From contig JAJTEN010000021.1 in the NCBI GenBank assembly GCA_021298155.1, forward strand, positions 1 to 36,589: DNA of 36,589 bases. Direction: 5' to 3'. Below the pieces are notes generated by a model that saw nothing but the letters and a program-made list of their open reading frames with translations, was not told the origin of the DNA and searched no databases. Within the stretch, counting starts at the first letter, position 1. Each line of letters opens with the position of its first letter. Origin of the DNA: Sphingobacteriales bacterium (GTDB taxonomy: Bacteria > Bacteroidota > Bacteroidia > UKL13-3). Shown here piece by piece: positions 34,728 through 36,561 of the stretch. A program made the position numbers and the translations under genes.

Positions 34728-36347
<1,620 letters not shown>

Positions 36348-36367: not shown

Positions 36368-36375
36368 CAAAGGTA
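36368..36375 (-). promoter_or_regulatory. Candidate -7 box for the ABC-F gene
   Basis: TACCTTTG is an exact TAnnTTTG match lying 20 bases before the ABC-F ATG and downstream of the small-RNA terminator, so the ABC-F gene need not depend on readthrough. The -33 element is weak: 21 bases upstream the sequence is TTATG. Confidence 0.45.
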
Positions 36376-36399: not shown

Positions 36400-36429
36400 A
36401 AAAAAACGGGGCCAGTTACCTGGACCCCG
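36400..36429 (-). terminator. Rho-independent terminator of the small RNA
   Basis: CGGGG + CCAG pairs with CTGG + CCCCG (36407-36415 with 36420-36429, one bulged base, loop TTAC on the plus strand), followed on the minus strand by seven T (36400-36406). The hairpin begins right after a GGCTAAAG segment that can pair with hairpin 1 of the same transcript. Confidence 0.9.
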
Positions 36430-36527
36430 CTTTAGCCTATGAAACAAATTGCATTCTACCCCTAGATGCAATTATCTTTATGTAAATTTAGCAAATGCTA
36501 AACACAAATAATTTTTATCTATCTTAC
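36400..36527 (-). ncRNA. Candidate structured small RNA, about 128 nt, upstream of the ABC-F gene
   Basis: A non-coding stretch between a promoter (36532-36561) and a terminator (36400-36429) on the minus strand. It can fold as three hairpins. Hairpin 1 is TTTAGCA/TGCTAAA (36487-36493 with 36496-36502). Hairpin 2 is an 8-bp AATTGCAT/ATGCAATT stem (36447-36454 with 36466-36473), extended by CTA/TAG around a loop that is GGGG in the RNA. Hairpin 3 is the terminator. Only a five-codon frame (36437-36454, MQFVS) begins inside it, with its ATG in the hairpin 2 stem. I do not recognise a named RNA family; it is not SRP, tmRNA or tRNA. It could be a trans-acting sRNA or, less likely, an attenuator leader. 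Confidence 0.6.
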
Positions 36528-36531
36528 CAAA

Positions 36532-36561
36532 CAAAAGTACAAAAAAAATATAACAAACAAG
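36532..36561 (-). promoter_or_regulatory. Promoter for the candidate small RNA
   Basis: The -7 box TACTTTTG (36532-36539) exactly matches TAnnTTTG. A CTTG/TTTG cluster lies at 36554-36561; the nearer TTG ends 18 bases from the -7 box, close to the usual 19-21. Predicted transcription start about 36527. Confidence 0.55.

Follow-up and report, generated by a model that had tools for sequence, protein, structure and literature searches.

Very few small RNA (sRNA) families have been characterised in the Bacteroidota, a phylum that mostly lacks Hfq, makes hardly any use of Shine-Dalgarno (SD) sequences to lead translation initiation, and has TAnnTTTG as its -7 promoter box. Elsewhere, CpxQ and MicL are enterobacterial, Hfq-dependent envelope-stress sRNAs derived from 3' UTRs, some of them with an intragenic promoter, while the alphaproteobacterial "cuckoo"/CcsR type and LhrC are multicopy, anti-SD sRNAs that expose CU-rich motifs. 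Closer to the locus described here, bile salts induce the FopS family of Bacteroides (seed consensus GTGTTTTTCATAGTATTAGA...), which represses translation of susC by pairing around its start codon and to which the RRM protein RbpB binds (PMC11697453). Start regions are also the pairing sites of GibS (PMC7366714).

The window, i.e., the whole 36,589-nt stretch of DNA that was analysed, makes up contig C34 in the genome of a Sphingobacteriales bacterium, 2.5 Mb in size and 98.7% complete. An earlier note had marked an interval ending 28 nt short of the contig end as a possible free-standing, undescribed sRNA gene with its own promoter and terminator. All of the parts it described, i.e., a TAnnTTTG box, hairpins, a GGCTAAA word, a T7 terminator and a separate box for the adjacent ABC-F gene, were located on the minus strand. 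In the following list, the -7 box, GGCTAAA, the terminator and the ABC-F box were read directly from the sequence.

36561-36558, minus strand: CTTG, a possible -33 element, with an 18-nt spacer to the -7 box
36532..36539, minus strand: -7 promoter box TACTTTTG of the TAnnTTTG type
36401..36525, minus strand: predicted sRNA transcript of ~125 nt with a conserved core of ~80 nt, placed from the promoter and terminator positions
36487..36502, minus strand: TTTAGCATTTGCTAAA (TTTAGC ATTT GCTAAA), hairpin 1 of the earlier note, in the lineage-specific 5' segment
36447..36473, minus strand: core hairpin AAUUGCAUCUAGGGGUAGAAUGCAAUU with a GGGG loop, supported by covariation and an arm-swap test
36455..36465, minus strand: conserved loop motif CUAGGGGUAGA; G[GA]GUAG in 50/54 copies family-wide
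36431..36448, minus strand: single-stranded linker UUUGUUUCAUAGGCUAAA, the most conserved part and proposed seed
36444-36438, minus strand: UUUCAUA, the invariant stretch of the linker
36437-36431, minus strand: GGCTAAA before the terminator
36400..36429, minus strand: intrinsic terminator CGGGGUCCAGGUAACUGGCCCCG-U7 with a GGGG/CCCC stem, which covaries, and T7
36368..36375, minus strand: TACCTTTG, promoter box preceding the ABC-F gene, past the sRNA terminator
34728..36347, minus strand: downstream neighbour, an ABC-F ATPase of 539 aa (start codon 36347; Pfam ABC_tran and ABC_tran_Xtn)

The window RNA is a real, conserved sRNA gene and represents a new family within an already known kind of sRNA. 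Its fold was more stable than those of 200/200 dinucleotide shuffles (z -4.8), and its -7 box was also present in the five nearest genomes, 54-56 nt upstream of the core. The suggestion that the RNA was undescribed held: Rfam 15 gave no family match at the window RNA or at ten homologous loci (tRNA elsewhere only), and the best overlap, RF04184 (BTnc060), was a weak, chance-level match at the terminator that reached 14.4 bits where the gathering score is 228.9. In alignment, the 3' two thirds of the RNA were conserved and the 5' third, including hairpin 1, was variable. The conserved core runs from a variable-armed hairpin with a (G/A)GUAGA loop through the near-invariant linker to the terminator. 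A short peptide reading frame inside the RNA, ATGCAATTTGTTTCATAG (MQFVS), was rejected as a candidate, the relatives having GTG or no start codon in its place.

Arm sequences of the core hairpin were wholly different between copies while their pairing was kept. Compensatory changes were found at 8/8 pairs of this helix, with 95% of cells paired compared to 71% in shuffles and 216 double-change cells compared to 54, although these counts are biased by the fitting of the alignment to the structure. The structure-blind counterpart was an arm-swap test on 14 mutually distinct arm classes, in which arms were assigned solely according to where they lay around the loop; own arms paired at a mean of -9.0 kcal/mol versus -4.1 kcal/mol for permuted arms, and 0/20,000 permutations were as good. 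The terminator stem also covaried at 8/8 pairs. The earlier note had put forward both hairpin 1 and the GGGG-loop hairpin as candidates for compensatory changes, and of these the latter covaries whereas the former is not conserved. Its idea of an alternative fold, in which GGCTAAA would pair with hairpin 1, fails for the same reason: the hairpin and this pairing occur at best in the nearest relatives and are not conserved in other genera or in most of the genus.

Single-stranded parts of the core were more constant than its stems. The loop followed the consensus (G/A)GUAGA, with GGGGTAG kept in 31/54 copies and TGAG in place of GGGG in several genera. The linker, which the earlier note had not singled out, retained UUUCAUA in 54/54 copies and UUUCAUAGG in 51/54. 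In genus g8 (L188, L191, L196, L198, and L201), loop and linker were altered together, to GGGGUAA and UUUCAUAUACUAA, respectively; this double change, GUAG to GUAA in the one and AGGC to AUAC in the other, possibly reflects co-evolution with a partner. A loop-linker pseudoknot was considered and discarded since the by-eye pairing amounted to just 3 bp and was inconsistent with the g8 variants.

The family occurs throughout one group of uncultured Bacteroidota and is absent from the Rfam catalogue. It was present in 19/19 genomes of the source genus, and a first covariance model built on 28 copies placed it in 50/64 genomes and 9/14 genera of the order (E<=0.01). With a second model built on 54 diverse copies and a threshold of E<=0.1, it was found in 54/64 of the order's genomes, the weakest of these matches being doubtful. 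Genomes carried 1-6 model matches, the weakest of six at doubtful E-values, and six genomes had two or three copies in tandem, each with its own terminator. Beyond the order, a strict pattern search found the sRNA in 0/395 other Bacteroidota genomes and a loose pattern matched at the control level. Model R2, run across the class with stricter filters and weak sensitivity, returned terminator-like matches only (best E 9.5e-5, inspected), and viral contigs gave 0 matches to the sRNA.

The main copy lies just 3' of an RND pump gene in genera g1, g3, g4, g5, g8, g10, g11, g13, and g14, and in many genomes the core begins directly past the RND stop codon. Wherever the whole operon was visible, this gene was the last of a tetR-tolC-HlyD-RND operon (Pfam TetR_N, OEP, HlyD_D23, and ACR_tran). 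In the window genome, the contig ends (36589) just before the sRNA promoter, and the RND gene, matched over residues 1-998, is cut off by the end of another contig (G000:C65:3-2996), which fits an assembly gap between the two; it is thus very likely that such a gap separates the RND gene on C65 from the sRNA on C34. Downstream genes varied, i.e., ABC-F, ArsC, a YjbR-like protein, a RibF-like protein, and others, often 20-60 nt away. The ABC-F gene, named in the earlier note as the next gene, adjoins the RNA in the source genus only and in none of the other genera searched; the conserved association is with the upstream RND efflux operon, and ABC-F is incidental. Paralogs lie directly 3' of hsp20 in g1 and g3, and others stand alone. 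At five loci (L203, L206, L208, L214, and L218), a shorter hairpin-linker-terminator variant starts from the hsp20 stop codon, with a RibF-like gene next.

TAnnTTTG was found within 95 nt upstream of 16/24 spacer-type and 9/10 free-standing copies, compared to an expected ~0.07-0.17 per search window. At the free-standing copies, the box mostly abutted the hairpin, and RNAs of 74-83 nt were predicted for the five that were folded. Similarly spaced TAnnTTG(C) boxes preceded most tandem copies. In g1 and g3 genomes whose core follows the RND stop codon immediately, the RND codons ACT TTG ... TTA CTT/TAT/TTT TTG themselves spell TTTG-N-TAnnTTTG. This string was present in the synonymous 3' codons of RND in 13/15 genomes without a spacer versus 0/7 with a spacer promoter (Fisher p 2e-4, indicative only, as the genomes are related and phylogeny is uncorrected), a natural promoter experiment in which the intragenic promoter is retained only where the spacer promoter is absent. 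Both exceptions (G001 and G018) carry further tandem copies. The hsp20-linked copies had a promoter box in 0/5 cases and are probably co-transcribed with hsp20. Taken together, the conservation, the covarying hairpin, the placement of the promoter, and the boxes dedicated to paralogs beside other genes strongly support the original proposal of a free-standing sRNA that has a promoter and a terminator of its own.

The reverse complement of the invariant heptamer UUUCAUA, UAUGAAA, contains a start codon and then a lysine codon, and ATGAAA occurs at 132/635 gene starts in G012, a relative for which target statistics were compiled (635 genes, 0.8 Mb). Pairing of the linker with the start regions of these 635 genes averaged -7.0 kcal/mol versus -6.1 kcal/mol for composition shuffles, none of which was as good (0/60). 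With UUUCAU held fixed and the flanks shuffled, 9/60 were as good; the flanks of the linker are no better than shuffled ones, so the start-codon signal comes solely from UUUCAU. Extended complementarity to the full linker was not enriched genome-wide (30/31/41 matches versus 24/30/32 in the control), and hardly any of the matches inspected lay at a start codon. Neither did start regions of the RND operon show consistent complementarity to the sRNA, as autoregulation would predict, and a literature search for the linker word returned unrelated papers only. One TonB-receptor-like gene (MKQKFLLL...) was among the top 25 start-region pairings in G012. From these complementarities, we favour start-codon targeting by the linker with moderate confidence.

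Considering these results, we propose a trans-acting, multicopy sRNA, linked to the RND operon, that represses translation by seed pairing with mRNA starts, and give this reading a probability of roughly 0.6. From its home site just 3' of the TetR-regulated TolC-HlyD-RND operon, the RNA would be transcribed from its own TTTG/TAnnTTTG promoter; where this promoter lies within the last RND codons, as in some genomes, the RNA could be made alone or as the 3'-terminal part of the pump transcript. The 5' hairpin with its (G/A)GUAGA loop would be protective, UUUGUUUCAUAGGCUAAA would serve as the single-stranded seed, and the terminator would close the core. The seed would most likely pair with translation starts of the (C)UAUGAAA(CAAA) type and repress translation, as the UUUCAUAG seeds of FopS do. 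In this way, induction of the efflux pump or stress on the envelope and, for the paralogs, Hsp20 stress may lead to reduced synthesis of some secreted or outer-membrane proteins. Hfq gave no PF17209 match in the 98.7% complete genome, while five control genomes did score; one RRM protein (RRM_1) is encoded, and it may assist the sRNA in place of Hfq.

Several features could also be read as those of an RNA whose loop and linker bind a protein, e.g., of the RRM type, and which sequesters that protein or keeps mRNA 3' ends stable: two separated, near-invariant single-stranded motifs stand among stems that vary freely, the genome encodes an RRM protein, and several copies terminate mRNAs (RND and hsp20). 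We consider this reading rather unlikely, given that the invariant heptamer would then be anti-start-codon by mere coincidence and, for a pure mRNA-stability tag, that free-standing copies with unrelated neighbours have dedicated promoters. The earlier note suggested that the sRNA perhaps acts through its exposed G-rich loop. It was right to draw attention to the loop, which is conserved in most copies, yet its GGGG gives way to TGAG in several genera whereas the linker heptamer never changes, making the loop a very improbable main site of action.

Two further readings are about as improbable. A structured RNA with a terminator and then a gene, often at short distance, resembles a cis-acting, riboswitch-like leader or attenuator; this is largely refuted by the unrelated nature of the downstream genes, by the ABC-F gene's own promoter box past the terminator, by terminators on each tandem copy, and by the lack of conservation of the alternative pairing with hairpin 1. 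A riboswitch or attenuator specific to ABC-F was rejected on the same differing neighbours and unconserved pairing. The position of the core directly past the RND stop codon would also suit an ordinary operon terminator or 3' UTR kept by vertical descent, a reading refuted by the free-standing copies, provided that these are transcribed: loop and linker persist in paralogs at unrelated loci although the stems are wholly replaced with pairing retained, and copies have their own promoters.

The proposed trans-acting sRNA shares several traits with FopS and GibS. All are multicopy sRNAs of the Bacteroidota, of ~65-80 nt (core) and with TAnnTTTG-type promoters; further likenesses are one known 3'UTR-derived member, the UUUCAUAG word within the proposed seed, and presumably a biology of RRM proteins instead of Hfq. 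However, the FopS/GibS seed is an unstructured 5' end, whereas UUUCAUAG of the new family lies between the conserved hairpin and the terminator, a position 3' of the hairpin that holds even in copies whose transcript is predicted to start at the hairpin. The families also differ in clade, genomic homes, and overall sequence; the longest word common to the linker and the FopS seed UUUUUCAUAGUAUUAGA is TTTCATAG (8 nt), which 423/20,000 shuffled linkers equalled (~2% chance level). Because seed position and architecture differ and no homology beyond these eight bases was detected, we do not file the new family under FopS/GibS; at most, it would work like them. Like CpxQ and MicL, it is an sRNA with a conserved seed that lies within a gene related to envelope stress or efflux or at the 3' end of such a gene, although those RNAs depend on Hfq and are unrelated in sequence and structure. 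With the "cuckoo"/CcsR type and LhrC it shares a hairpin with a conserved loop, a conserved linker, a terminator, and several paralogs, but they expose anti-SD motifs and its putative motif is anti-start-codon.

The family combines a covarying fold, a near-invariant putative seed, and paralogs with a constant association with a drug-efflux operon, and would tie efflux expression to a riboregulator, offering a precise, testable case of how an sRNA may choose its targets without an SD sequence. More tentatively, and with somewhat less than even confidence, the order-wide family may carry an invariant anti-start-codon seed (UUUCAU, pairing with AUGAAA) convergent with FopS/GibS, with efflux-pump and Hsp20 operons as RNA emitters and aiming at the start codon rather than the SD sequence as a general Bacteroidota mode.

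Some loci hold diverged elements. In genera g6, g7, g9, and g12, which lacked a strong model match, inspection by eye of the region 3' of the RND gene revealed no core. Genus g9 carries an altered GTTGTTTCTCATATAATAGG-terminator, perhaps a remnant, and its loci L290 and L291 have GTTGTTTCTCATATAATAGGTTTAGG just past the RND stop codon and upstream of a terminator, maybe a diverged linker remnant. At L254 (G063:C36), L219 (G057:C17), and L246 (G087:C17, of another family), a hairpin, UUCAUAGG, and a terminator occur without the GGGGUAG loop; these are possible distant relatives or convergent terminator-proximal elements. Finally, the first of two tandem copies in G018 (L057:831-921) is altered in its loop, linker end, and intragenic promoter codons while the second is intact, and it looks like a decaying paralog.
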